Assembly (NCBI GenBank): GCA_013816585.1
Contig: JACDEE010000002.1
Location: 1-64,000 of the forward strand
Direction: 5' to 3'
DNA: 64,000 nucleotides
Origin: Sphingosinicella sp.
Lineage (GTDB): Bacteria > Pseudomonadota > Alphaproteobacteria > Sphingomonadales > Sphingomonadaceae
Shown one piece after another: positions 33,059 through 46,729 of the stretch; position 1 is the stretch's first letter; the number at the start of each line of letters is the position of its first letter. The position numbers were made by a program, and so were the translations under genes. Below the pieces are notes generated by a model. That model was not told where the DNA came from. It was given only the letters and a program-made list of their open reading frames with translations, and searched no databases.

Positions 33059-34471
33059 GTGGCTACACAGGCCCAGTCCTCGTTCAATGACTATGTCGTC
33101 GCCGACCTTGATCTCGCCGGTTTCGGCCGCAAGGAGATCGAGATTGCGGAAACCGAAATGCCGGGCCTGATGGCGCTCCGTTCCGAATATGGCGCGGCCA
33201 AGCCGCTGACCGGCGCCCGCATCACCGGGTCGCTGCACATGACGATCCAGACCGCCGTTCTGATCGAAACCTTGACCGCGCTCGGTGCGCAAGTTCGCTG
33301 GGCTTCGTGCAACATCTACTCGACGCAGGATCATGCCGCGGCGGCGATTGCTGCTACCGGCGTTCCCGTATTCGCCGTCAAGGGTGAAACGCTCGAGGAA
33401 TATTGGGGCTATGCGATCCGCATCTTCGATTGGGGCCAGGACCAGACCTGCAACATGATCCTCGACGATGGCGGCGACGCCACCATGTTCGCGCTTTGGG
33501 GCGCGCGGGTCGAAGCCGGCGAAACCCTGTTCACGCCGACCAACGAGGAAGAAGAGATTTTCGCGGCGACGCTGAAGCGTTTCATCGACGAGCGCCCAGG
33601 CTATCTCACCAAGACCGTTCAGACCATCAAGGGCGTGTCGGAAGAAACCACGACGGGCGTTCACCGCCTGTATGAGCTTGCCAAGCAGGGCAAGCTTCCG
33701 TTCCCGGCGATCAACGTCAATGACAGTGTGACCAAGTCGAAGTTCGATAATCTTTACGGCTGCAAGGAGTCACTGGTCGACGCGATCCGCCGCGCCACCG
33801 ACGTGATGCTGGCCGGCAAGGTCGCCTGCGTCGCCGGTTTCGGCGATGTCGGCAAGGGCAGCGCCCAATCGCTTCGCAACGGCGGCGCCCGCGTCCTGGT
33901 GACCGAAGTCGATCCGATCTGCGCGCTGCAGGCCGCGATGGAGGGTTTCGAAGTCATCACCATGGAAGAGGCCGTCACCCGCGCGGATATCTTCGTGACC
34001 GCGACCGGCAATGCCGACGTGATTACGCTCGATCATATGCGCGTGATGAAGAATATGGCGATCGTCTGCAATATCGGCCATTTCGACAGCGAGATTCAGA
34101 TCGGCGCGCTCAGCAACATGAAGTGGACCGAGATCAAGCCGCAGGTCGACGAAGTCGAATTCCCGGACGGCAAGAAGATCATTGTCCTGTCCAAAGGTCG
34201 CCTGGTGAACCTCGGCAACGCCACGGGCCATCCGAGCTTCGTGATGTCTTCCTCCTTCACCAACCAGGTTCTGGCCCAGCTCGAAATCTGGGAAGGCGGC
34301 GATAAATATAAGAACGACGTCTACGTGCTCCCCAAGCATCTCGACGAGAAAGTGGCCTTGCTTCACCTCGACAAACTGGGCGTGAAGCTCACCAAGCTTA
34401 CCGACAAGCAGGCGGGCTATATCGGTGTGCCCGTCGAAGGACCGTTCAAGCCGGACCATTATCGCTATTGA
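33059..34471 (+). CDS. ahcY: Adenosylhomocysteinase
   Basis: AhcY splits S-adenosylhomocysteine into adenosine and homocysteine, relieving inhibition of methyltransferases. The 470-residue protein carries the NAD-binding [18 protein letters not shown], the active-site region [19 protein letters not shown] and [11 protein letters not shown], and ends KPDHYRY, the usual C-terminus. The start is GTG at 33059 after AAGGAG; the longer frame to 32981 begins inside the promoter region. It also carries the roughly 40-residue insert common in proteobacterial enzymes. Confidence 0.96.
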
Positions 34472-34482
34472 TTTAACGCCTG

Positions 34483-36303
34483 TTAGAGGTTGGCAGGTAC
34501 GGCAGGATACCGATGAAGGACGTCCCCGAGGGCGTCCTTCATCGGCGTCAGCCGCTGTTCAAACTGCCGCCATTGATCAATGCCTTCACGATTGATCGGG
34601 CGGCGCACTTGCTCCGAACTTGAGGTACGGACTGCTCGTCGGTTTTCGTGAAAGCGCAGGCACGCCTCGTCGAACGGCAGATCGAGATAGTCCAGTAGCC
34701 GGCGTACTTCGGCTTCCGAATTTTCCACCAAATCTTCATAGATAACGCGATGAATTCGACCTGGAACGATCGTGTCGAAATGCTTCATCATCCGAACATA
34801 GTCGACATAGAAGGATCCTATGTCCTTCATGTTATAGGTGAACGCCTGGCCACGCGCGAAATGCTGTTTAAAATTGGAGAGCCCGCACGCGAGGGGGTGG
34901 CGTCGTGCGTCGATAATCTTGCAGTTGGGCAGCGCCGACAGGACCAATCCAAGATGAAGCCAATTATTGGGCATCTTATCGATGAACCGGGGGCGCGATG
35001 TCCGGCGCCTGAGCCCTGTGCTCCAGATGAAGCTTTGCCCGAGCTTGCGTAACTCGTCTCCGCCAAGCGCCGACAGCCTTTCAAGGTAGGCGCTATCCTC
35101 AAAGCCCGCATGCTTCCCGTCGCCCAGCCATTTGGCCAGAGTTCCCATGTCGGGCAACTCCATCGTCCCTTCGACCTGCGGATGGCTAGCCAGGATCTGC
35201 TCGATCAGCGTTGATCCGGAACGCGGCATTCCGACGATGAAAATGGGGTCTTGCGAAGGATATCCCTGTCCGGCGCGAGTCATGAAAAAATCACTGTCGA
35301 AAACTCGAATAGATTGATCAACATGACGGGACACGGCATCCCGATCATGCCCGACAGATTTTGCACGTAAACTGTTGCCGGCGGAATAATGGTCAAAAGC
35401 GATTTCGGTGAGGTCTCGCTGCTCGAGGGCCTTGCCCAGCGAAAAATGGATTCCCACACGATCGGTCTCATCCGCCGCTGGGTCATCAACCAGGCTCAAC
35501 ATGGCGTCTATATCGGCCTGATTGAAATTCTCCGTCTTGAGATCGGCCAGCGCCCACCATGCCTCGCCGAATATTGGCCGGATTACGATTGCATGGCGAT
35601 AGGCGGCGATTGCGTCCTCGCGGCGGCCGACGGTGCGCAGGACATGGCCATAGCTGACCCAATTATGCGGACTATCCGGAAACTCACGCACCGTCTCCTC
35701 GTAAAGCTCCAGCGCTTCGCGATAGTCGCTGACCGCGTCATTTTCTGACTCGTCCTCAAGCATATTTTCCACCGGCAAAGCACCACGAGCGCCGTCAGGG
35801 GAGGCCGCATCTGTCTGCGCCATTCTTGCCCGCAAACGCCGCGTCGCCTTGAGGAGCGCGTGCGCGGACGAATAATCGGGCGCTAGATTAAGCGCCCGCT
35901 CCAGCAATTCTTCGGCCGCATCGAAATGACCGGTCCGAGCCCCGATTTCCGCGAGGAGCCGCAACGCCGCCGGGTCTTCCGGGTTCTCGTGGATATAGGG
36001 CCGGAGCAATTGTTCGGCGGCGTCCAGGCGATTTTCGGACAAGGACATGATAGCTTGAAACATTAACGGCTGGTGCGACGAGAGCTGGATCGCCCTGTCC
36101 TCTGCTCGCCGCGCCTCGTCTAGTTCGCCTACCTGGCGAAGGGCTCTCCCAAGAAGATGATGGGCCTCGTGACAGCGCGGATCGACGCGAATGATTTCGC
36201 GCGACTGTTCGATCGAGCTGGCAGGGTCAGACACGATCAACCGGCGGGCGTTCGCTAATGCATGGCCCTTGGTGCCGAACCCGTCCCGGTGTTGATCGCT
36301 CAT
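34483..36303 (-). CDS. TPR-containing sulfotransferase family protein
   Basis: This 606-residue protein has an N-terminal run of tetratricopeptide repeats (about 15-320; for example HHLLGRALRQVGELDEARRA and AAEELLERALNLAPDYSSAH) and a C-terminal sulfotransferase domain. The latter shows the PAPS-binding loop IFIVGMPRSGSTLIEQILAS and a later DARRHPLACGLSNF segment. It would transfer sulfate from PAPS to an unknown acceptor; TPR-sulfotransferases of this kind resemble protein tyrosine sulfotransferases in layout. No signal peptide is seen. The ATG at 36303 follows AGGAAT. It lies downstream of, and on the same strand as, a TonB-dependent receptor, beyond a terminator. Confidence 0.87.
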   Translation of the reverse strand: MSDQHRDGFGTKGHALANARRLIVSDPASSIEQSREIIRVDPRCHEAHHLLGRALRQVGELDEARRAEDRAIQLSSHQPLMFQAIMSLSENRLDAAEQLLRPYIHENPEDPAALRLLAEIGARTGHFDAAEELLERALNLAPDYSSAHALLKATRRLRARMAQTDAASPDGARGALPVENMLEDESENDAVSDYREALELYEETVREFPDSPHNWVSYGHVLRTVGRREDAIAAYRHAIVIRPIFGEAWWALADLKTENFNQADIDAMLSLVDDPAADETDRVGIHFSLGKALEQRDLTEIAFDHYSAGNSLRAKSVGHDRDAVSRHVDQSIRVFDSDFFMTRAGQGYPSQDPIFIVGMPRSGSTLIEQILASHPQVEGTMELPDMGTLAKWLGDGKHAGFEDSAYLERLSALGGDELRKLGQSFIWSTGLRRRTSRPRFIDKMPNNWLHLGLVLSALPNCKIIDARRHPLACGLSNFKQHFARGQAFTYNMKDIGSFYVDYVRMMKHFDTIVPGRIHRVIYEDLVENSEAEVRRLLDYLDLPFDEACLRFHENRRAVRTSSSEQVRRPINREGIDQWRQFEQRLTPMKDALGDVLHRYPAVPANL

Positions 36304-36424
36304 CTTAATTCCTGAAAAGACTGGGAGGACCGCGCAAGGCTGCGATATGCCGTCTGATAGTTCAAGCGTCGGGTCGAAAAATTGGGTGAACTGCGGTGGC
36401 TGACCGAACGTGTTCAATTTTTTC

Positions 36425-36461
36425 AAAAAAAGGCCAGGACAAACGTCCCGGCCCCTTTTTT
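36425..36461 (-). terminator. Rho-independent terminator after TonB receptor 1
   Basis: GGCCAGGAC (36432-36440) pairs with GTCCCGGCC (36445-36453) with one G-U pair and a 4-base loop. On the minus strand it is followed by a T-run (A-run 36425-36431 on the plus strand). It lies just past the stop of the leftward receptor gene and separates it from the sulfotransferase gene. Confidence 0.82.
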
Positions 36462-36475
36462 ACGTAGCAATTAAA

Positions 36476-39400
36476 TCAGAATTTGGCGACTGCGCCGGCA
36501 TAGAAGAACCGGCCGATATTGCGGTAGATACCGCTTCCACCGCCAATACCAGACTGCCCGAAGGGCGGTTTGCGATTGGTGACATCATCGACGCCGAAAT
36601 ACATGTTGAAACGTTTGTTCACATCAACCCCAAGGCGAATGTCGTGGTAGAAGACCGAGGGATAGAACGGACGTTCCGCCCAATCCGAGTTGGTGGGCGC
36701 GCGACCCTGTTTCTCGAAGAAGAATTCATACTCGGCCGTATTGAGCAACATCTTACCCAAGTAACGCATTTCGTAGCCGATGGTGAAGGGGCCGGATTTC
36801 AGTTCCGTACTCCAGTTGAACGCATCCTTGGGATCGCCCAGTTCGAGCAAATTCTGATCCGCCAGCGTTGGGTCCGTCGGATCGAGGAACTGGTCGTTCT
36901 GCAGAGCGCGGGTGTAGACGAACCGGGTGTTGAACTGTCCGACCCCGTTGATGGCGCGGCGATAGGATGCGTCAACGTCGATGCCGCGAACCTTCAACTT
37001 GGCGTAGTTTAGCGGTGTAAGCTGAAGGCTGTTTTCCAGAATACGTCCGCGAATTTCACCGCGCGGACCGCCTCCGACACCGGCACGCTGAAATTGCGTA
37101 CAAAACTGGTTGTTGATATTGGCCAAGTCATAGCAAGCGTTGACGAGAGCCTGCGCCGATGGCGACGTAATCACGTCGTCAACGGTTATGCTGTAATAAT
37201 CGACCGAAAGGGCGAACCCGGGCAGGAACCGCGGCTGAAGCACTCCGCCGATGGTGATCGAGTCCGATGTTTCCGGCTTCAGATCTTCATTGCCTCCCGA
37301 CAGGAAGCCCAACGATGCCGTGTAATTATAGTCGAATCCAGCTGGCACGCCGGCGGCAGCGCAGTTTGCCGCGCGATTTGCCGAGCCCGCCCCGATCTGG
37401 TCGTTATCACACGGATCGGTGAAGCCTGGCGCGAAATTCTGCCCGAGCGGGGTAAATGCATCGGCCAGGCTCGGTGCTCGCACGGCTCTCGATAGATTGG
37501 CGCGAAAGCGCAGGTCGCGGACCGGAGCCAGGATCGCGCCCACGTTATAGGCGTAAGCCGTGCCTGATCCCTTATAGTCTGCGACCCGGCCTGCGCCGGA
37601 AATCGTAAACTCTTCTATGAAATCGTTGGCAATGATCGGCAGACGAAGTTCGCCGAACGCTTCCTTCACCTCGAATTTGGGCGGCGCAAAGCGGGGAATG
37701 GCATTGTAGAACGTCAGGCCATTGGCCGTTGTGGAATCCTGTTCATAGAGAACGTCGTAGGTGCGATATTCTGCACCTACGGCGAACCCGACGGGACCGC
37801 CTGGAAGGTTGAGAAACTCGCTGGTATCGCCCGAAAGGAAGGCGTTGAGGACGAGTTCCTTGATGTTTCCCTTGGCAACGGAATCTTCGAGAATATAGTC
37901 CCGCGCGGCCTGCGTGATATTGCCTTCACCGAAGAAATTGACGGGGACGCATTGTGCCACGTCATTGGCAAGCTGTGCGCGAGCCGCGGCCTCGTCGAGC
38001 GCGAATTCAAAGGGAAGTCTGGCCGACGGATCGATCGAAGCACGGCAGACGATATTGCCGTTGGCTGGATTGCGAACCGCATCGATCGACAGCAGATAGC
38101 GTTGCAGATTAACGTTGCCCAGGATGTTGGTGCGTTCCTTGAGCTTGCCGTAATTGGCGGACACTTCGTACGACCAGTCGTCGTTAAATTCGCCGCGAAC
38201 GCCCCCGACGATGCGGAAGGTATCACGCCGGCCTTCTTCCTCTCGATTGCTGAGTTCAACGACGTTGCGGAACATATAGAAATAGGTGTCGTCCGTCGCT
38301 GGATCGAGACCATATTCGCCCAGGATCGTGTTCCGTGCCTGGGCCGAAAGGTAAGGATTGTCCGTGAAGAAGATTTCGCGGGGCGAACCAGTGGCAGGCG
38401 TAAAGAACGGCCCGGAGGCGTTGCCCAGCGAGTCAGTCCGCACGAATTTGGCTTCGATAAAGGGCTCAAAAGCCTCGCTGACCGTGAAGTGGGCCAATAG
38501 GTTGGCGCTGTAGCGATCAAGCTTTGGAGACAGGCCAAACTGCGTCCCGTCGCGGAAATTGTCACCGTCGCCGCCCAGGAACGAACCGAACGGGCTTATG
38601 CCTACACGCTGGCCAGTGAACGGAGTAAGCGTCCCGTTAGGCTGAAAAGCGTAAGGGATCGTGAAATTGCCGGATCCGCCTACCAGGGGATCAGCTGGAT
38701 TGATGAAGTTGCAGCATGAATAGAAAGCGCCTCCATTTCTGTAGAGCGCGCTGCGAATATCCCTCAGAAAGACCCGGTCGGGCTGGTTGTCGCTGGGAGC
38801 ACTCGCGGGGTCGGTATCGACCACGACGAATCCATCCGTTTGGCGCAAGTTCGGACGGCCCGCACCATAAAAATCCTGCTGACGGGCATATTCCAGATTG
38901 ACCGCCACGTTGCCGCGACCATCGCTGAAGTTCCTACCGGCAAGCACGCTGCCATAATATTGACCGGCGTCGCCATACTTGCTCACGCCGGCCTGACCGC
39001 GGACCTGCAGTCCTTCGAAGTCGCGCTTCAGAACGAAGTTCACTACGCCCGCAATTGCATCCGATCCATAGATCGCGGAATTGCCGCCGGTGACCACGTC
39101 GACCCGCTCGATGAGGTCGGTCGGCATCGTGTTGGTGTCCACCTCAACGGCGTTGCCGAGAATATTCGAGGCGACGTGGCGGCGGCCGTTCTGCAGTACA
39201 AGGGTGCGGTTCGTGCCAAGCCCGCGAAGATCGAGATTGTTGAGACCGGAAGTGCCCAGGAAACGAGTCGAGTTCGCTTGGCTCATCGTGCTGCGAAGTG
39301 CAGGAAGCTCGTTCAGCGTATCACCGACCGAAGTCTGGCCGGTCTGAAAGAATTCCTCACCTCCGACTGAGGTGATAGGCACAGCGGAATCCAGATTGGG

Positions 39401-39610
39401 CCTGCGGATGCGGGAGCCTGTAACCACGATCGCGTCATCCGACGTGGCGCTCTCACCCGATTCGATTTCAACCTCGCTCTGCAGGGTCGCAGGCGGATCC
39501 TTTTCTTCCGCCACTTCCTGGGCGACAGCGCTGGTAGCAAAGCACAGCGTAGCGCCAAGGAAGGCCGCAGAGCGGAGTGCACTGGTGCCGAGTAGGTTTA
39601 AACTTTTCAT
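36476..39610 (-). CDS. TonB-dependent outer-membrane receptor 1
   Basis: This 1044-residue outer-membrane receptor has a signal peptide (SAAFLGATLCFATSAVAQ), a linker rich in Glu/Ser, a TonB-box-like DDAIVVTGSRI, a plug domain (RTLVLQNGRRHVASN, SAIYGSDAIAGVVNFVLKRD) and a long beta-barrel ending in the aromatic signal FYAGAVAKF. The substrate is unknown; size and Caulobacter/sphingomonad-type plug suggest large carbohydrates, peptides or cofactors. The ATG at 39610 follows GAGGGATC. It is a close paralogue of the receptor at 39953 and is divergent from it. Confidence 0.93.
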   Translation of the reverse strand: MKSLNLLGTSALRSAAFLGATLCFATSAVAQEVAEEKDPPATLQSEVEIESGESATSDDAIVVTGSRIRRPNLDSAVPITSVGGEEFFQTGQTSVGDTLNELPALRSTMSQANSTRFLGTSGLNNLDLRGLGTNRTLVLQNGRRHVASNILGNAVEVDTNTMPTDLIERVDVVTGGNSAIYGSDAIAGVVNFVLKRDFEGLQVRGQAGVSKYGDAGQYYGSVLAGRNFSDGRGNVAVNLEYARQQDFYGAGRPNLRQTDGFVVVDTDPASAPSDNQPDRVFLRDIRSALYRNGGAFYSCCNFINPADPLVGGSGNFTIPYAFQPNGTLTPFTGQRVGISPFGSFLGGDGDNFRDGTQFGLSPKLDRYSANLLAHFTVSEAFEPFIEAKFVRTDSLGNASGPFFTPATGSPREIFFTDNPYLSAQARNTILGEYGLDPATDDTYFYMFRNVVELSNREEEGRRDTFRIVGGVRGEFNDDWSYEVSANYGKLKERTNILGNVNLQRYLLSIDAVRNPANGNIVCRASIDPSARLPFEFALDEAAARAQLANDVAQCVPVNFFGEGNITQAARDYILEDSVAKGNIKELVLNAFLSGDTSEFLNLPGGPVGFAVGAEYRTYDVLYEQDSTTANGLTFYNAIPRFAPPKFEVKEAFGELRLPIIANDFIEEFTISGAGRVADYKGSGTAYAYNVGAILAPVRDLRFRANLSRAVRAPSLADAFTPLGQNFAPGFTDPCDNDQIGAGSANRAANCAAAGVPAGFDYNYTASLGFLSGGNEDLKPETSDSITIGGVLQPRFLPGFALSVDYYSITVDDVITSPSAQALVNACYDLANINNQFCTQFQRAGVGGGPRGEIRGRILENSLQLTPLNYAKLKVRGIDVDASYRRAINGVGQFNTRFVYTRALQNDQFLDPTDPTLADQNLLELGDPKDAFNWSTELKSGPFTIGYEMRYLGKMLLNTAEYEFFFEKQGRAPTNSDWAERPFYPSVFYHDIRLGVDVNKRFNMYFGVDDVTNRKPPFGQSGIGGGSGIYRNIGRFFYAGAVAKF

Positions 39611-39952
39611 GTGATCCCTCATGACGATGCGTCGATGCAGACGGTTAGACTCTCAAATTCCCTAAGAAACTGATCGGATTTCTTAATCCGCACAATATGC
39701 TAGTTCAAATTCCCCTGAGCTGTCGCAAAAGTATCACATGGCAAGGAGGGGCTCGACAGCCCCCAGAATAGCCCAGTGCCCCGGATTTCCGCGGTCACGA
39801 AGATGAATGTGATATTAATGTGACACCGGTGAACCTTTCAATCGGCGGTGACGTGCGGGCGTTTTCTTTTGGGGGCGGATGCGCGACAATGGCCGTCAGC
39901 TTCAAATTTCTCAGTCAAAATTATCAAAATCAATGTGAAGAGGGATATATCG
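39611..39952. promoter_or_regulatory. Divergent control region between two TonB receptors
   Basis: This 342-base gap is less GC-rich than the flanks and must hold the promoters of both receptors. It contains the direct repeat AATGTGA at 39806-39812 and 39817-39823, an 11-base (one helical turn) spacing, plus a TATCACAT at about 39731. These could be binding sites of one regulator shared by the two genes. I cannot name it. Confidence 0.5.
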
Positions 39953-42900
39953 ATGCGTCTCCTAAGCACCTCGAAGGGCCTGGCCGCTACTGCTTCCGTG
40001 CTGGCAATTGCGCTCGCAATGGGTAATCCGGCCTACGCGCAGGAGACGACAGGCGAGGACGACCCCGCAACGTTGCAGAGCGAAGTCGAAGCCGAGTCGG
40101 GGGAAAATGCGACGACTGATGAGGCCATCGTCGTCACGGGATCGCGAATTCGCCGTCCGAATCTGGAATCTGCTATCCCGATCAGCTCGCTTGGCGGCGA
40201 GGAGTTTTTCGAAACTGGGGAAATTGCCGTCGGCGAAGAGCTGAATGATCTCCCGCAGCTCCGCAGCTCGATGGGCCAACAGAATGCTGCGGGCCAAAGC
40301 CTGGCCCTTGCTGGTCTCAATTTGCTCGACCTTCGCGGCCTTGGCACGGCGCGCACGCTAGTGCTCGTCAACGGCCGGCGTCACGTGGGCTCAGACATTA
40401 TCAACAACGCAGTCTCCCCGGACGTCAATACTTTCCCGACTGCACTTATCCAGCGCGTGGATATCGTCACAGGCGGAAACTCGGCCATTTACGGTTCCGA
40501 TGCCATTGCCGGCGTCGTGAACTTCGTTCTCAAGCGTGATTTCGAAGGTGTTGAAGCCCGCGGGCAGGCCGGGATCAGCCACTATGGTGACGCGGGAGCT
40601 TACTTTGCCAGCCTTACCGCCGGCCAGAACTTTGGCGATGGCCGTGGTAACGTCGCCATCAGCGCCGAATATGCGCGGCAAGATCAATATTTCGGAGCTG
40701 GCCGGCCGTTCATCGAAAGCCAAGATGGGTTTCTGGTTGTTGACACGGACATCAGGTGCACGGGCAGCAACGCCGCAACTTGCGACCCGAACGTAAACGC
40801 GACGAATAGCGACGGGAATCCCGATCGAATATTCTTCCGGAATATTCGCAGTGGCACGATCAGCAATACCGGCGTGATCCAGTTCGGGTCCACGCAAGCG
40901 GCCGGTCTTAGCGCCGCCAACAATTGCGGAACAGATGCAGTTGGCGGCCGGTTCAACTGTCCGTTTATCTTCCAGCAGGACGGAACGCTCGTCCCGATCA
41001 GTGGCGCCCGTGTGGGCATCGGTCCCGCCGGATCCTTCATTGGTGGAAATGGCGAAGATTTCCGGGGCGGAGAGGAGTTCCAGCTCGCCGCGAACCTGGA
41101 TCGTTACGTGGTGAACCTTCTTGGTCACTATACCTTCAGCGACGCTTTCGAGCTATTCGGCGAAGCCAAATACGCTAGAACGGATTCAATTGGCGCCGCC
41201 GGCACAGGCCCCGGTTTCATTGTCAGCGCGGGGTTAGGCGGCGACGCTCGGCAAGCCTTCCGGATCGACAATCCGTTTCTGACTGATCAGGCCCGCGGAG
41301 TGGTTATTCAGCAGCTCAACCGGTTTGGAGTGGATCTCAATACGGGCGCCCCGCTGACTACCGCTCAGCGGGCTCAAATTGCCGCAGGGACATTTCGGGT
41401 TCGTTTCCAGGAGAGCTTCCTGAACCTGGGCAAGCGCGAAACTCAGATCAAGCGTGAAACCTACCGGGCTGTCGTCGGCGCGCGCGGAACGTTCAACGAC
41501 GACTGGACGTTCGAAGCCTCCGCCAATTATGGCGAGTTCAAGGAATTCAACTTTCAGGCCGGGGCACTTGGGCGGCAGCGGCTTCTCCTCGCGCTGGACG
41601 CCGGACGCGATCCGGCGACTGGACAAATTCGTTGCCGCTCGCAGTTCGATCCGGCAGCCCGAGTGGGCTCGCCTACCGCCACAGGAACCGCCGCGCAAAT
41701 CGCTGCCACGCTCAACGCGGACGTTGCCGCTTGCGTCCCCATTAACCCATTTGGCGGCCAATTCACGCAGCAGCAGCGGGATTATCTGCTTTTCCCCTCC
41801 ACGGCGGAAGGGAAGATCACGCAGTTCGTCGCCAACGCCTTCATCTCGGGCGACTCCAGCGAGCAGTTTGAGTTGCCCGGTGGTCCGGTCGGATTCGCCA
41901 TGGGCCTCGAATGGCGGCGTGAGAAGAACTTCTTCGAAGTAGATGAGAACACCCGTCGCAACCTGACGTTCTTTAATCCAACGAGCACCTTCCGCGCTCC
42001 GGCGTTGGATGTGAAGGAGGTTTTCGGAGAAATCCGAGCGCCACTCCTAAAGGATGTGCCGTTCTTCCACGAACTCACGCTGAACGCTGCTGCGCGGTAC
42101 GCGCTTTATAGCGGTGCAGCCGATGCGACTGGCGGCGTTCTCGCCTACAATGCCGGCGTCGAATGGGCTCCGGTAAGGGATTTGCGGCTGCGAGGGAACT
42201 ATTCCCGGGCAGTCCGCTCTCCGAACCTTTCGGAGCTCTTCACTGCGGAGACCGCCGGTTTCGCTACCATCGGCGCAAACGACCCGTGCGCTGTTCGCAA
42301 TCGTAGCGCGGGCGCCTCCACTCGAGCGGCAAACTGCGCCGCGCTGGGCGTGCCGGACAGTTTCGACTTCGTATACCCTGGTTCGCTTACCATCAGGTTC
42401 GGCGGCAACCCGAACCTCCGTGCGGAAACGTCGAAATCGTTGACGCTTGGCGGGGTCCTTCAGCCACGCATTCTCCCTGGCTTTTCCCTTTCCGTCGACT
42501 ATTTCGACATCAAGGTGGAAGACGTTATTACCAGTGTCGGGTCGCTGACCATTCTCCAGCAGTGCGTCGACCAGCCAACGATCGATAATCCGTTCTGCGC
42601 CCTCTTTCAGCGTAATCGGGGGCCTGGGCTTGGTCCTGCCGGCGAAATTCCTGGCCGCGTCCTCGAGGGGAGCCTGCTTCAGTCGACACTGAACTTTGCA
42701 AGCCGCCGTGCCCGCGGTGTCGATGCGGAGCTTACACTCCGGAGGGACATTCCTGGCCTGGGTCGCCTGGATCTGCGCGGCATCTACACGCATACTTTCG
42801 AGCGCTCGAACTTCGAAAATCCAGCTAATCCGAAATTTGAGAACGTCCTTCTCAAAGAACTGGGAGATCCCGCGGATGAGTTTGCAATTCGGGCTAACCT

Positions 42901-43219
42901 TAAGACTGGACCCGTCACATTTGGTTACAACCTGCGGTTTATCGGAAAGCAGTATCTCAACACGTTTGAGGACTACAATTCAGTGAATGACCTGCCTCCC
43001 CAAAACGCTGATTATGCCAACGTAAAATACTATCCTGAGGTTGCTTATCATAACTTCCGCGTAGGCTTCGAGGTTGGAGATGCCAATGAGTTCTATGTGG
43101 GCGTGGACAACGCGTTCAACAAAGAGCCGCCCCTTGGTCTAACCGGCATCGGAGCAGGAAGCGGCATTTACGACAATCGCGGCCGCTTCTACTATTCGGG
43201 ATTCAAAGCGCGCTTCTAG
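39953..43219 (+). CDS. TonB-dependent outer-membrane receptor 2
   Basis: This 1088-residue receptor shares the signal-linker-plug layout of receptor 1: signal peptide (LAATASVLAIALAMGNPAYA), TonB-box-like DEAIVVTGSRI, plug with RTLVLVNGRRHVGSD and SAIYGSDAIAGVVNFVLKRD, and a barrel closing FYYSGFKARF. Much of the plug is nearly identical to receptor 1, while the surface-loop regions of the barrel differ, which suggests related but distinct ligands. The ATG at 39953 follows GAAGAGGGA. Its codon use is less GC-biased than that of the core genes around it. Confidence 0.93.
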   Translation: MRLLSTSKGLAATASVLAIALAMGNPAYAQETTGEDDPATLQSEVEAESGENATTDEAIVVTGSRIRRPNLESAIPISSLGGEEFFETGEIAVGEELNDLPQLRSSMGQQNAAGQSLALAGLNLLDLRGLGTARTLVLVNGRRHVGSDIINNAVSPDVNTFPTALIQRVDIVTGGNSAIYGSDAIAGVVNFVLKRDFEGVEARGQAGISHYGDAGAYFASLTAGQNFGDGRGNVAISAEYARQDQYFGAGRPFIESQDGFLVVDTDIRCTGSNAATCDPNVNATNSDGNPDRIFFRNIRSGTISNTGVIQFGSTQAAGLSAANNCGTDAVGGRFNCPFIFQQDGTLVPISGARVGIGPAGSFIGGNGEDFRGGEEFQLAANLDRYVVNLLGHYTFSDAFELFGEAKYARTDSIGAAGTGPGFIVSAGLGGDARQAFRIDNPFLTDQARGVVIQQLNRFGVDLNTGAPLTTAQRAQIAAGTFRVRFQESFLNLGKRETQIKRETYRAVVGARGTFNDDWTFEASANYGEFKEFNFQAGALGRQRLLLALDAGRDPATGQIRCRSQFDPAARVGSPTATGTAAQIAATLNADVAACVPINPFGGQFTQQQRDYLLFPSTAEGKITQFVANAFISGDSSEQFELPGGPVGFAMGLEWRREKNFFEVDENTRRNLTFFNPTSTFRAPALDVKEVFGEIRAPLLKDVPFFHELTLNAAARYALYSGAADATGGVLAYNAGVEWAPVRDLRLRGNYSRAVRSPNLSELFTAETAGFATIGANDPCAVRNRSAGASTRAANCAALGVPDSFDFVYPGSLTIRFGGNPNLRAETSKSLTLGGVLQPRILPGFSLSVDYFDIKVEDVITSVGSLTILQQCVDQPTIDNPFCALFQRNRGPGLGPAGEIPGRVLEGSLLQSTLNFASRRARGVDAELTLRRDIPGLGRLDLRGIYTHTFERSNFENPANPKFENVLLKELGDPADEFAIRANLKTGPVTFGYNLRFIGKQYLNTFEDYNSVNDLPPQNADYANVKYYPEVAYHNFRVGFEVGDANEFYVGVDNAFNKEPPLGLTGIGAGSGIYDNRGRFYYSGFKARF

Positions 43220-43245
43220 AGGCTATTCGCAAACTCAACGAACGG

Positions 43246-43275
43246 GGGCCGGAACATCGTTCCGGCCCTTTTTTC
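43246..43275 (+). terminator. Rho-independent terminator after TonB receptor 2
   Basis: GGGCCGGAAC (43246-43255) and GTTCCGGCCC (43259-43268) form a perfect 10-bp stem with a 3-base loop, followed by six T. It ends the receptor 2 transcript before the oxygenase gene, which must therefore have its own promoter or depend on read-through. Confidence 0.9.
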
Positions 43276-43317
43276 TTTGCGCTGGCAATTTGAGCATCGG
43301 ATGGCGATGTTAAGCAC

Positions 43318-44301
43318 ATGACGTTCCACGCTCTCGCAGGTCGCACCGAAGATCTCGCTTTATCCGGGAAAGGAGGTGAAGCGCTGGAAATGCTTGAAAA
43401 GGCGGCGTCGCAGAACGATCCCGAAGCTCTATTCGTCCTTGCTCAATGGTGTCTTTCCGGCAGGTTCGTCGCCCGCGACTTGTCTCTGTCGCGCGATTTC
43501 TTTCGGCGAGCGGCGGAAGCCGGCAATCTGGAGGCGGGGCCGGTTTATCGGGCGTTTGTCGCCAACGGCACAGGCGGTCCGCCGGACTGGCAAGGCGCTT
43601 TGCGTCTCCTGAAATCCGCTTCCCCACGCGAACCGCAGGCCCGGCGGCAATTGGACCTTGTCAGGAAAATGGGCCTGACAGCGAGTGGTGATCCGCTGGC
43701 TATTCCCCAACCTGAAGATTTAAGTGAATCGCCTCAGGTGAAATTATTTCCCTCGCTGTTCACGAGCGCGGAATGCGATTTCATCGTCCAGAATGCCGAG
43801 CCCTTATTCTCCCCTTCGGTGGTCGTGGATCCCGATACCGGGCGCGATATCCCCAACCCCATACGGACGTCGGAAGGGGCAGCCTTTCCGCTGGCCCTTG
43901 AAAATCCAGCGCTTCATGCTCTTAATCGGCGACTGGCCCTGGCGAGCGGCACGCTTTCGGAACAGGGAGAGCCACTGCAGGTCCTGAAATATCGACCGGG
44001 TCAGGAATATAAAGCGCATCTCGACGCTCTTCCGGGTGTGGACAATCAGCGTCTATTCACCATTCTGGTCTATCTCAACGAGGATTATGAAGGAGGTGAG
44101 ACCTGCTTTCTGATGAGTGATCTGCGGGTCAGAGGACGCAAAGGCGACGCCTTGCTGTTCGCCAATTCGGATTTCTACGGGAGGACGGATCAGCGTTCGC
44201 GTCATGCGGGGCTGCCGGTTATCAAGGGAGTGAAGCTTCTTGCCTCGCGATGGATTCGGGCCCGGCCGCTCGATCTTTCGGGACGAAGTCCCCGGAACTG
44301 A
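43318..44301 (+). CDS. Sel1-repeat 2OG-Fe(II) oxygenase
   Basis: This 327-residue protein begins with Sel1/TPR-like helical repeats (ALFVLAQWCLSGRFVARDLS, AAEAGNLEAGPVYRAFVANG) and ends in a prolyl-4-hydroxylase-type dioxygenase domain. Iron ligands are visible as HLD in EYKAHLDALPG and the distal His in SRHAGLPVIKG, whose Lys would bind 2-oxoglutarate. It has no signal peptide and is probably cytoplasmic. The substrate is unknown; peptidyl hydroxylation is the usual role. Together with the TPR-sulfotransferase it flanks the pair of TonB receptors. Confidence 0.87.
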   Translation: MTFHALAGRTEDLALSGKGGEALEMLEKAASQNDPEALFVLAQWCLSGRFVARDLSLSRDFFRRAAEAGNLEAGPVYRAFVANGTGGPPDWQGALRLLKSASPREPQARRQLDLVRKMGLTASGDPLAIPQPEDLSESPQVKLFPSLFTSAECDFIVQNAEPLFSPSVVVDPDTGRDIPNPIRTSEGAAFPLALENPALHALNRRLALASGTLSEQGEPLQVLKYRPGQEYKAHLDALPGVDNQRLFTILVYLNEDYEGGETCFLMSDLRVRGRKGDALLFANSDFYGRTDQRSRHAGLPVIKGVKLLASRWIRARPLDLSGRSPRN

Positions 44302-44383: not shown

Positions 44384-46729
44384 ATGATTGAACTTCCACC
44401 GACAGCCATTGCGGCACTTGGATTGATGGCCGGCCTCTGGCTGGTGATCGCCGTCGTCGCCGTGGTATCCGGTTTGCGGCGGGAAAAGGCGGCGAGAGGG
44501 ATCAGCGACGAAGCGGCGGCCGCGACCGCGCTTCTTGCGGCCTCTTCATCGATCCCGTTGGTGGTTGAGCCCGGCGGCCTGCTGGATCCTGCGGGAAGGT
44601 TGAGATCGTGGCTCGACATGAGCGCCCCGACTGCCCGCACATTTTCCGATATTCCTTCCCTGCCGCCGGAGGTGGGCGCCAATCTCGACAGGAATGTCGC
44701 CAGGACATCTTCCACCGGAGAATGTTTCGAGCAGAGTTTTCGAGTGAGTTCATCGTCGCACATCCTGAAGGTTTGGGGCGGGCCCGCGCCGCCCGCGTTC
44801 AAACAGGGCAGCGTCCTCCTCTGGTTCACTGACGCCACCGAAGCGGAGCAGCAGATGGATGGCCTGCGCAGCGAGGTTGGCCGCCTCGCCACCGCGCTGG
44901 ACGCGCTCACCGGGTTGCTGGAGGCAGCTCCATTTCCGATGTGGCATCGCGGTCCCGATTTGCGCCTTGCCCTGGTCAACAGCGCTTATGTGCGGGCGGT
45001 CGAGTCCGACAGCGCAATCGCAGTGATCAAGTCCGGCATTGAGCTGGTCGATGAAAGCGAGGGCCGAAACGCGCTGAGCCAGGCAGCCGCGGTCCTGCAA
45101 AGCGGGGAGGCGCTATCGCGCACGCTTCCTGCCACCATCGCCGGCGAGCGGCGCACCATGCAGGTGGTCGAGGTTCCGCTGGGGGAAGGGGTCGCCGGCT
45201 ATGCTATCGATGTCGAAGATCGCGAACAGGCCCACGCCGAATTGTCGCGCTTCGTGCGCGCGCAACGCGACATGCTCGATCGGCTATCCGCGGGAGTCGC
45301 TCAATTTTCCCGCGACCGGAGCCTCATCTTTTTCAATCAGCCCTTCTGCCGGCTGTTCGCGCTGGCCAGCGACTTCCTGGCGGACGAGCCCGAATTCGAT
45401 CGGGTGATCGAAGCGATGCGGGAAAGCGGAAACCTGCCGGAGGTGCGCGATTTCCCGGAATGGAAAGAGGAAAGGCGCGGATGGTTCACCTCCGGCCTCG
45501 CAGCGGATGAGGAGGATTGGCTGCTCCCGGGGGGAAAACATCTCCGTGTAGTCGCGCAGCCTCTCCCGGACGGAGGTCTGGTGGTCATTTTCGAAGACAG
45601 GACCGAACAGATCCAGCTGGCGAGCGCTCGCGACACCTTGCTTCGGGTGCGAACGGCGACATTCGACAATCTGTTCGAGGCAATCGGCGTCTTCGCATCG
45701 GATGGACGGCTCCATTTGTGGAACAACCGTTTCAAGGAGCTTTGGCAATTCGACGAAGAACAGCTTTCCGCCCATCCGCGCATCGATGCCATGGTCCCGC
45801 ATATTGCCGGCAAATTGAAGCGTCCAAATCATGCCTCCCTGGTGCGTGAACTGGTGCGCAGCGCAACGGTCGAGCGGAAGCAGCGCAACGGCCGGGTCGC
45901 GTTGACCGACGGGCGCGATTTCGAATTTGCCGCGGTCCCGCTACCTGACGGAAATGCGCTTTTCACGATGCTCGACATCACCGACAGCCGGATGATCGAA
46001 GCGGCATTGCGCGACAAGAACGAGGCGCTTGAGGATGCCGACCGGCTGAAGACGGCTTTCGTTTCGAATATGAGTTATGAATTGCGCACGCCGCTCACCT
46101 CGATCGGGGGCTTCGCGGAAATGCTGGCCGGCGGATATGCAGGGGACCTGCCCCCCATAGCCGCCGAATATGTGGCAGCGATCAATGATAGCGTCACGCG
46201 CCTCAGCGCCCTGATCGACGACGTCCTCGATCTCACCCAAAGCGATACCGGCAGCCTGTTGCTCGCTGAAGATCAGGTGGATCTGCAGGCTTTGTGCCGG
46301 GAGGCCGCCGACCGCGCCAGTGAAGCGGCCAGGAAGAAGAATATCGAGATCGTCGCAGACCTCGATCCTTCGGTCGGCGAGCTGACCGGCGACCGCCGGC
46401 GCCTTCGCCAGGTGATCGACAATATCCTCAAGAATGCGGTGGCCTATACGGACGAGGGAGGAGGCGTCCTGCTCCACGCCACCGGAAGCGCGCGTGCAGC
46501 GGAAATCACCATCTCTGACAATGGGCGGGGCATATCCCCAGCCGATCAGGCGCGGGTGTTCGACCGCTTCCACCGAAATGCCGGTCCTGGCAGGGGCGAC
46601 GATTCCGCCCTGGGCCTGGGTCTTCCGCTCGCAAAGCAATTCATCGAGGCGCATGGCGGATCGGTGAAGCTCCAGTCGACCGTCGGCACCGGCACTAGCG
46701 TTGCCTTGTTTCTGCCCCGGCGGTCCTGA
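44384..46729 (+). CDS. divL: Cell-cycle pseudokinase DivL
   Basis: DivL regulates the CckA-CtrA cell-cycle pathway in alphaproteobacteria by interacting with DivK and CckA. The 781-residue protein has an N-terminal membrane helix (LGLMAGLWLVIAVVAVVSG), PAS-like domains, and a HisKA-HATPase module (DNGRGISPADQARVF, GLGLPLAKQFIEAHGG). The decisive feature is the H-box: SNMSYELRTPL, with Tyr565 (TAT at 46076-46078) where ordinary kinases have His. This substitution is the hallmark of DivL. The order divL-tsaE-amgK-murU-addB also matches its known alphaproteobacterial context. Confidence 0.92.
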   Translation: MIELPPTAIAALGLMAGLWLVIAVVAVVSGLRREKAARGISDEAAAATALLAASSSIPLVVEPGGLLDPAGRLRSWLDMSAPTARTFSDIPSLPPEVGANLDRNVARTSSTGECFEQSFRVSSSSHILKVWGGPAPPAFKQGSVLLWFTDATEAEQQMDGLRSEVGRLATALDALTGLLEAAPFPMWHRGPDLRLALVNSAYVRAVESDSAIAVIKSGIELVDESEGRNALSQAAAVLQSGEALSRTLPATIAGERRTMQVVEVPLGEGVAGYAIDVEDREQAHAELSRFVRAQRDMLDRLSAGVAQFSRDRSLIFFNQPFCRLFALASDFLADEPEFDRVIEAMRESGNLPEVRDFPEWKEERRGWFTSGLAADEEDWLLPGGKHLRVVAQPLPDGGLVVIFEDRTEQIQLASARDTLLRVRTATFDNLFEAIGVFASDGRLHLWNNRFKELWQFDEEQLSAHPRIDAMVPHIAGKLKRPNHASLVRELVRSATVERKQRNGRVALTDGRDFEFAAVPLPDGNALFTMLDITDSRMIEAALRDKNEALEDADRLKTAFVSNMSYELRTPLTSIGGFAEMLAGGYAGDLPPIAAEYVAAINDSVTRLSALIDDVLDLTQSDTGSLLLAEDQVDLQALCREAADRASEAARKKNIEIVADLDPSVGELTGDRRRLRQVIDNILKNAVAYTDEGGGVLLHATGSARAAEITISDNGRGISPADQARVFDRFHRNAGPGRGDDSALGLGLPLAKQFIEAHGGSVKLQSTVGTGTSVALFLPRRS

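Follow-up and report, generated by a model that had tools for sequence, protein, structure and literature searches.

We analysed a 64,000-nucleotide stretch of Sphingosinicella sp. DNA (the window; positions 1 to 64,000 of contig JACDEE010000002.1, in a source genome of 2.82 Mb), which carries a locus of two TonB-dependent receptors, TBDR1 and TBDR2, flanked by a TPR-sulfotransferase (SULT) and a Sel1-repeat protein of the prolyl 4-hydroxylase family (P4H). Comparison with relatives in other genomes points to a locus of receptors and the enzymes that modify them, in which P4H would hydroxylate a proline of a receptor and SULT would modify its partner receptor, both before export; we put the probability of this reading at roughly two in three. 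The sequences argue strongly for a receptor as the substrate of the oxygenase, and more weakly for a receptor as the substrate of the sulfotransferase class.

The four genes lie between a gene ending at 34471, which we take from its sequence to be ahcY, and a histidine kinase gene starting at 44384. They form two divergent pairs, TBDR1 then SULT on the minus strand and TBDR2 then P4H on the plus strand, with intergenic gaps of 49, 225 and 98 bases. The features are as follows.

34483-36426, minus strand: SULT, a TPR and Sulfotransfer_3 protein of 647 residues from a TTG start (Pfam; Sulfotransfer_3 E 9.9e-47).
36476-39622, minus strand: TBDR1, a TonB-dependent receptor of 1048 residues, which precedes SULT on that strand and contains QNFAPGFTDPC (Pfam).
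37409-37438, minus strand: the NFAPGFTDPC motif of TBDR1, in the inferred extracellular loop 7 (motif search).
37427-37429, minus strand: the codon of Pro732 of TBDR1, the predicted hydroxylation site (column and tree tests).
39623-39847, no strand: the 225 bases that separate the divergent receptor genes and presumably contain both promoters (gene coordinates).
39848-43219, plus strand: TBDR2, a paralogous TonB-dependent receptor of 1123 residues from a GTG start (Pfam).
42257-42289, plus strand: GFATIGANDPC of TBDR2, in place of the proline motif (motif search).
43318-44301, plus strand: P4H, a 2-oxoglutarate (2OG)-Fe(II) prolyl-4-hydroxylase-like protein of 327 residues with one Sel1 repeat and a 2OG-FeII_Oxy_3 domain (Pfam, PDB matches, catalytic residues).

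All four coordinates and domains agree with an initial annotation of the window, which had described two paralogous receptors back to back between an outer TPR-sulfotransferase and an outer Sel1-oxygenase. Both receptors contain PF07715 (Plug) and PF00593 (barrel) and are 53% identical; by eye, each has an IVVTGSRI TonB-box-like segment and a signal-peptide-like N terminus, and a crude hydropathy test flagged neither. TBDR2 more likely starts at the ATG at residue 36 than at the GTG. Translation of SULT may in fact begin at the ATG of residue 42, and the alignment with its homologues starts at about residue 50.

The best PDB matches of P4H were solved prolyl-4-hydroxylases (2jig, E 2.7e-24; 3itq, 6.5e-20; 5hv0, 6.6e-20), from Chlamydomonas and Bacillus. 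The H-D-H iron triad and the 2OG-binding Lys of such enzymes are represented by His234, Asp236, His296 and Lys306, which were invariant across 16 aligned relatives, and H, D, H and K were retained in 91 of 92 P4H sequences (five of them repeats). In the exception (L345:2727-3760; L and G numbers denote our loci and genomes) the reading frame is interrupted ahead of the final H and K, by decay or sequencing error.

We surveyed the neighbours of P4H in a family sample of 149 genomes and in a second scan of named genomes. The family sample contained Sel1-P4H genes at 181 bits or more at 29 places in 27 genomes, and in 14 of 27 cases P4H adjoined a TonB receptor (15 if L107, where a hydroxylase lies in between, is included). 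The named-genome scan returned 69 P4H loci, mainly from Sphingomonas, Sphingosinicella, Sphingopyxis and Novosphingobium; it used five P4H queries, four of them receptor-linked, and so favours relatives of those. We set aside loci with less than 3 kb upstream (L293, L298, L307, L317, L345) and the distant matches L354-L356. A receptor of the TBDR1 clade bearing the proline motif described below was present at 54 of the 61 loci whose upstream sequence reaches 3 kb or more, or 49 of 56 without repeated genomes.

A proline distinguishes the receptors paired with P4H. In the discovery alignment it was present in 13 of 14 P4H-paired receptors and in 0 of 17 related receptors without an adjacent P4H. 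It lies in the motif N-[FY]-[AST]-P-x3-D-P-C and corresponds in the window to Pro732 of TBDR1. The signature came from one data set and was checked on another (the final column and Pagel sets, below, include the discovery set): in the new scan all 51 receptors of at least 900 residues within 1.3 kb upstream of P4H had the proline (46 without repeats). Ten other long receptors occur in the named-scan stretches; five, belonging to the clade and to the same P4H loci, have the proline, and five out-of-clade receptors do not. With the single exception of TBDR2, all receptors of both sets lying at most 1.6 kb upstream of P4H carried the motif (66 receptors, including five repeats), and among 6731 open reading frames of the loci examined the motif occurred in 70, all of them receptors. 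Seventeen receptors without an adjacent P4H were added from other genomes, and 15 of them lacked the proline. Decaying copies were also seen. G574 has P4H remnants (fragments) beside a receptor whose motif reads QNFAT, and in G053, of the same genus, the Sel1-P4H is broken into overlapping out-of-frame fragments beside ahcY and the kinase (L126, 9322-9940), with no receptor left at the site.

P4H and the proline have evolved together. We built the receptor tree without the motif columns; P4H-less receptors fell at no fewer than six separate points inside the P4H clade, nearly all of them without the proline, and there were about 14 changes of P4H state and about 13 of proline state. Of the 91 receptors, 66 had both P4H and the proline, one P4H only, two the proline only and 22 neither: the 67 receptors from P4H loci include 66 with the proline, and the 24 related ones without P4H include two. 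Pagel's dependent model was preferred to the independent one with a likelihood ratio (LR) of 55.2 (p 3e-11), and the other 13 of the 14 best Fisher columns reached an LR of at most 19.7. In the column scan, run before the 17 added receptors and one further receptor from a P4H locus joined the set, the proline separated the groups 65/66 versus 0/7 (Fisher 4.9e-9), against 5.5e-4 for the next best of 724 tests, a gap of five orders of magnitude. The residue that covaries with this enzyme of the prolyl-hydroxylase family is a proline. The repeats L296, L297, L333, L344 and L353 were omitted from the final trees, the column scan, the Pagel test and the tyrosine-motif count below, and included in the raw locus, motif and catalytic-residue counts and in the first tree. 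Also excluded were 16 out-of-clade receptors, L105 (its P4H is upstream of a motif-less receptor from outside the clade) and L238, whose broken receptor frame reads QNFATVVDPC, without the proline. The motif-bearing receptor that stands beside the P4H of G640 was not in the tree, and L373 (QTFPR, with the proline one place earlier) was scored as lacking it.

Counting strands by eye from the C terminus, and presuming a 22-strand barrel with short periplasmic turns and long outer loops, we placed the motif between strands 13 and 14, so that Pro732 would lie in extracellular loop 7. The two cysteines of this loop, C738 and C754, were invariant in 31 aligned receptors. A Tyr beside the loop proline, first suggested by two SULT loci, was considered as a SULT site and dropped: the Tyr also occurs without SULT nearby (L336, L338, L347), and several SULT-paired receptors have Phe.

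In addition to its Sulfotransfer_3 match, SULT contains PRSGSTL and RRHPLACGLS, as a sulfotransferase dependent on 3′-phosphoadenosine-5′-phosphosulfate (PAPS) would; we take PRSGSTL and RRHP-x5-S to be the PAPS-binding motifs. A strict PAPS-motif pattern matched 11 of 60 SULT relatives, the other 49 not having been inspected at that site. Against solved structures the catalytic domain matched protein-tyrosine sulfotransferases (TPSTs; best E 1.4e-7) and also the polyketide enzyme CurM (E 8.5e-7). The source genome has three Sulfotransfer_3 genes, and all three adjoin a TonB receptor (in the window, at L030 and, tail to tail, at L031). Since this 2.82-Mb genome contains 23 Plug matches, 22 of them above the cut-off, we estimate the chance of such adjacency at less than 2% per gene. 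A SULT relative at E 1e-20 was found in 111 of the 149 family-sample genomes. We fetched 53 SULT neighbourhoods from the higher-scoring matches, besides 27 around P4H, and SULT adjoined a TonB receptor in 54 of 59 matches (55 if L122, with P4H in between, is included). The initial annotation had proposed checking whether the enzymes co-occur with TonB receptors; the counts for SULT (54/59), P4H (14/27) and the named scan (54/61) speak against random co-occurrence, both enzymes being receptor-linked in many genomes. Its view of the four genes as one symmetric unit did not hold up: the symmetric order was seen nowhere else in these 80 neighbourhoods, and both receptor-enzyme pairs occur apart. 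At L122 receptor, P4H and SULT form a single gene run at the same site between ahcY and the kinase.

One of the other source-genome loci, L031 (G000:C32:56000-75999), encodes a TPR-Asp/Asn hydroxylase, a TPR-sulfotransferase, a TauD oxygenase, a 334-residue protein and a 1056-residue receptor, together with a PAPS_reduct-domain protein followed by a GTPase and APS kinase protein. We read the last two, by their domains, as CysD and CysNC, which would therefore place the supply of the sulfate donor PAPS close to the sulfotransferase. Elsewhere the loci of SULT-paired receptors contain an amino-acid permease cluster (17 loci), a flavin oxidoreductase (14) or a BCCT transporter (7), neighbours that hint at nitrogen-containing ligands. 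SULT is kept while receptors and transporters vary among groups. In L127-L157 and L166-L179 many receptors of one group have an amino-acid permease or a flavin oxidoreductase nearby, and many of the other group a BCCT transporter.

Most SULT-paired receptors outside the clade of the window receptors share an aligned cluster of tyrosines, such as SDYSDYAYFYD or TDYSYYTVAYD. The pattern DYx[DEY]Y was present in 47 of 57 SULT-adjacent receptors and in 0 of 119 without SULT within 2 kb, and four of the ten SULT-adjacent receptors without the pattern kept a Y-x-x-Y core. For three receptors of L257 and L122 the distance to SULT is 700-2000 bases, and we placed these in neither group. We searched for unpaired close relatives of the SULT-linked receptors of about 800 residues in 38 genomes (37 of the 38 SULT-lacking family-sample genomes, G066 being left out, plus G070, which has a weak SULT match); 35 had none at E 1e-40, and the other three gave weak matches of 28-31% identity. 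The case for the tyrosine cluster is weaker than that for the proline, because the receptors are related to one another and the genomes searched contain no close SULT-free relatives. Within the clade of the window receptors, we compared 10 SULT-linked receptors with 80 others column by column, omitting L360, whose SULT match is weak; this returned V759, T724, L913 and others, from a set most of which belongs to a single clade.

Four kinds of enzyme stand beside such receptors: TPR-sulfotransferase, Sel1-P4H, TPR-Asp_Arg_Hydrox and TPR-PF13759 oxygenase. L292 has a receptor, a PF13759 enzyme, an Asp/Asn hydroxylase and P4H in a row; the order receptor, Asp/Asn hydroxylase, P4H recurs in L107, L299, L309, L313, L314 and L333 (the last from the genome of L107), and the two enzyme genes overlap or lie at most 6 bases apart in L107, L309, L313, L314 and L333. 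A plan of repeats plus a catalytic domain would suit enzymes that hold a protein substrate.

We propose that Sel1-P4H works in the cytoplasm as a prolyl hydroxylase and acts on the receptor polypeptide before Sec export. It would hydroxylate the one proline of N-[FY]-[AST]-P-x3-D-P-C, which would later lie in the cysteine-bearing extracellular loop 7; in the window the substrate would be TBDR1, at Pro732, TBDR2 having lost the proline. The TPR-sulfotransferase would modify its own partner receptor, most likely on tyrosine, and in most partner receptors of about 800-900 residues the site would be the DYx[DEY]Y cluster. The Sel1 or TPR repeats may hold the unfolded receptor chain for modification by the catalytic part. 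We place both reactions before export because the cosubstrates (2OG, PAPS) are cytoplasmic and the enzymes have no obvious signal peptide. At the cell surface the modified loop might tune ligand binding or gating and, as Fe(II), O2 and 2OG are cosubstrates, the mark could, speculatively, report the state of the cell.

Several observations weigh against this proposal. TBDR2 stands directly upstream of P4H and yet is the only receptor of 67 without the proline. The four receptors that lie on the opposite side of a P4H (L105, L288, L308, L339) are out-of-clade and lack the motif, and at L105 the out-of-clade receptor, with P4H upstream of it, is the only one that adjoins P4H. G732 retains the proline with no P4H found in its genome at E 1e-50. 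G640 has a second proline-bearing receptor without an adjacent P4H, and a P4H-receptor pair elsewhere in the genome; conversely, in G648, G580, G657 and G668 P4H has a match elsewhere in the genome and the unpaired receptor is without the proline, which fits one enzyme per receptor better than a genome-wide effect. No receptor stands beside P4H in 12 of 27 family-sample genes and 7 of 61 named-scan loci. As to SULT, TBDR1 itself has no DYx[DEY]Y, and most SULT-paired receptors are related to each other, so that ancestry confounds the association. The cytoplasmic location of the two enzymes had a weak test: a crude hydropathy test for N-terminal signals flagged 0 of 60 SULT and 1 of 82 P4H proteins, and it is insensitive, flagging only 66 of 152 receptors.

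The main alternative, which we consider unlikely, is that the enzymes act on an imported ligand, the loop proline being a recognition residue that evolves with it. A single column stood far above the others tested, and it is a proline; the enzymes have TPR or Sel1 repeats, and such repeats usually bind proteins; SULT is constant while receptors and transporters differ between groups; and the modifying domains found beside such receptors are of four unlike kinds. This account does gain from the SULT-paired receptors, which sit with inner-membrane transporters and an oxidoreductase and look like uptake systems, from the other receptor columns that covary weakly with P4H (LR up to 19.7), and from the pairs of TonB receptor and 2OG oxygenase in E. 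coli (Fiu-YbiX) and Pseudomonas (PiuA-PiuC).

Shared regulation or descent alone might also have kept the gene order, with the proline a mere clade marker. Same-clade receptors do share residues by descent, and receptor-less P4H genes exist, but the nesting of P4H-less, mostly proline-less receptors at six or more places in the P4H clade and the outcome of the tree-based test (p 3e-11) make this very improbable. The initial annotation had suggested that the cell modifies a peptide or protein, either the receptor or a secreted ligand. Covariation of the proline favours the first, the receptor as substrate; the second, a secreted peptide (RaxX-like or plant-hormone-like) that is recognized by the receptor or exported, we regard as the least probable account. 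Plant P4H and tyrosine sulfotransferases modify secreted peptides, and RaxST modifies RaxX in Xanthomonas. The secreted-peptide idea is not supported here, because the gaps between the four genes are just 49, 225 and 98 bases and a signature located in the receptor accounts for the data without a precursor; nor was such a gene present in clusters of neighbours of at least 130 residues, smaller open reading frames not having been searched.

The components of the receptor-modification system we favour are known: prolyl hydroxylases, tyrosine sulfotransferases and TonB receptors paired with PiuC-type oxygenases. P4H shares its catalytic domain, by sequence, with the solved prolyl-4-hydroxylases (2jig, 3itq, 5hv0), including H-D-H and Lys; it differs from them in the Sel1 repeat in front and in adjoining a TonB receptor with a covarying proline. 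In Fiu-YbiX and PiuA-PiuC a TonB receptor gene likewise stands beside the gene of a PiuC/YbiX-type Fe(II) dioxygenase with the 2OG-FeII_Oxy_3 domain. Unlike those oxygenases, P4H has the Sel1 repeat in front and falls within the P4H group; it is not a PiuC/YbiX Fe2+-dependent dioxygenase, scoring 19 bits against the PRK05467 cut-off of 143. The SULT domain matches solved TPSTs, the family of TPST1/2, and most partner receptors have tyrosine clusters next to Asp; in contrast to TPST and to RaxST-RaxX, SULT is fused to TPR and stands beside a TonB receptor, and no peptide substrate gene was found among neighbours of at least 130 residues. Eukaryotic AspH has a TPR plus hydroxylase plan and modifies exported proteins; the TPR and Asp_Arg_Hydrox enzymes in the gene runs here are bacterial and receptor-linked. 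A Pseudomonas prolyl hydroxylase is a bacterial 2OG oxygenase that hydroxylates EF-Tu (PMC4682802); its substrate is a translation factor, whereas that proposed for P4H is an exported receptor encoded next to it. Other sulfotransferases are treated in PMC10932419. Searches of open full-text papers returned no account of paired enzymes that hydroxylate or sulfate a receptor, subscription papers and preprints lying outside their scope.

If the proposal is correct, sphingomonads would use dedicated partner enzymes to hydroxylate or sulfate their outer-membrane receptors at defined residues; enzymes common in sphingomonads would gain a substrate, and nutrient uptake a new layer of control. Predictions at the level of single residues follow that are directly testable by mass spectrometry. 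More tentatively, at somewhat less than even odds, sphingomonads may have a general receptor-decoration system, in which interchangeable repeat-plus-catalytic enzymes (prolyl hydroxylase, Asp/Asn hydroxylase, PF13759 oxygenase and tyrosine sulfotransferase), encoded one or several at a time alongside their TonB receptors, mark outer loops before export. Its marks would include hydroxyproline, sulfotyrosine and others, making it a bacterial counterpart of decoration in the eukaryotic secretory pathway, and it would couple uptake to iron, oxygen, 2OG and sulfate status.

Further genes of note stand beside these receptors. In L252, L253 and L254 a methyltransferase-like gene adjoins the TPR-PF13759 oxygenase gene next to the receptor (the Pfam search covered the L252 copies) and is perhaps another modifying step. 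A secreted-looking protein of about 170-200 residues with an 'RLxCYD'-like stretch was present at L031:12623-13141, L244:3663-4220, L252:11576-12130 and L257:11556-12167; a search with one copy gave no more than a weak match to VasI. In the source genome, L033:5252-6247 follows a large receptor gene directly downstream and encodes a 331-residue protein with no Pfam match at E 0.001, which is a candidate fifth partner enzyme.

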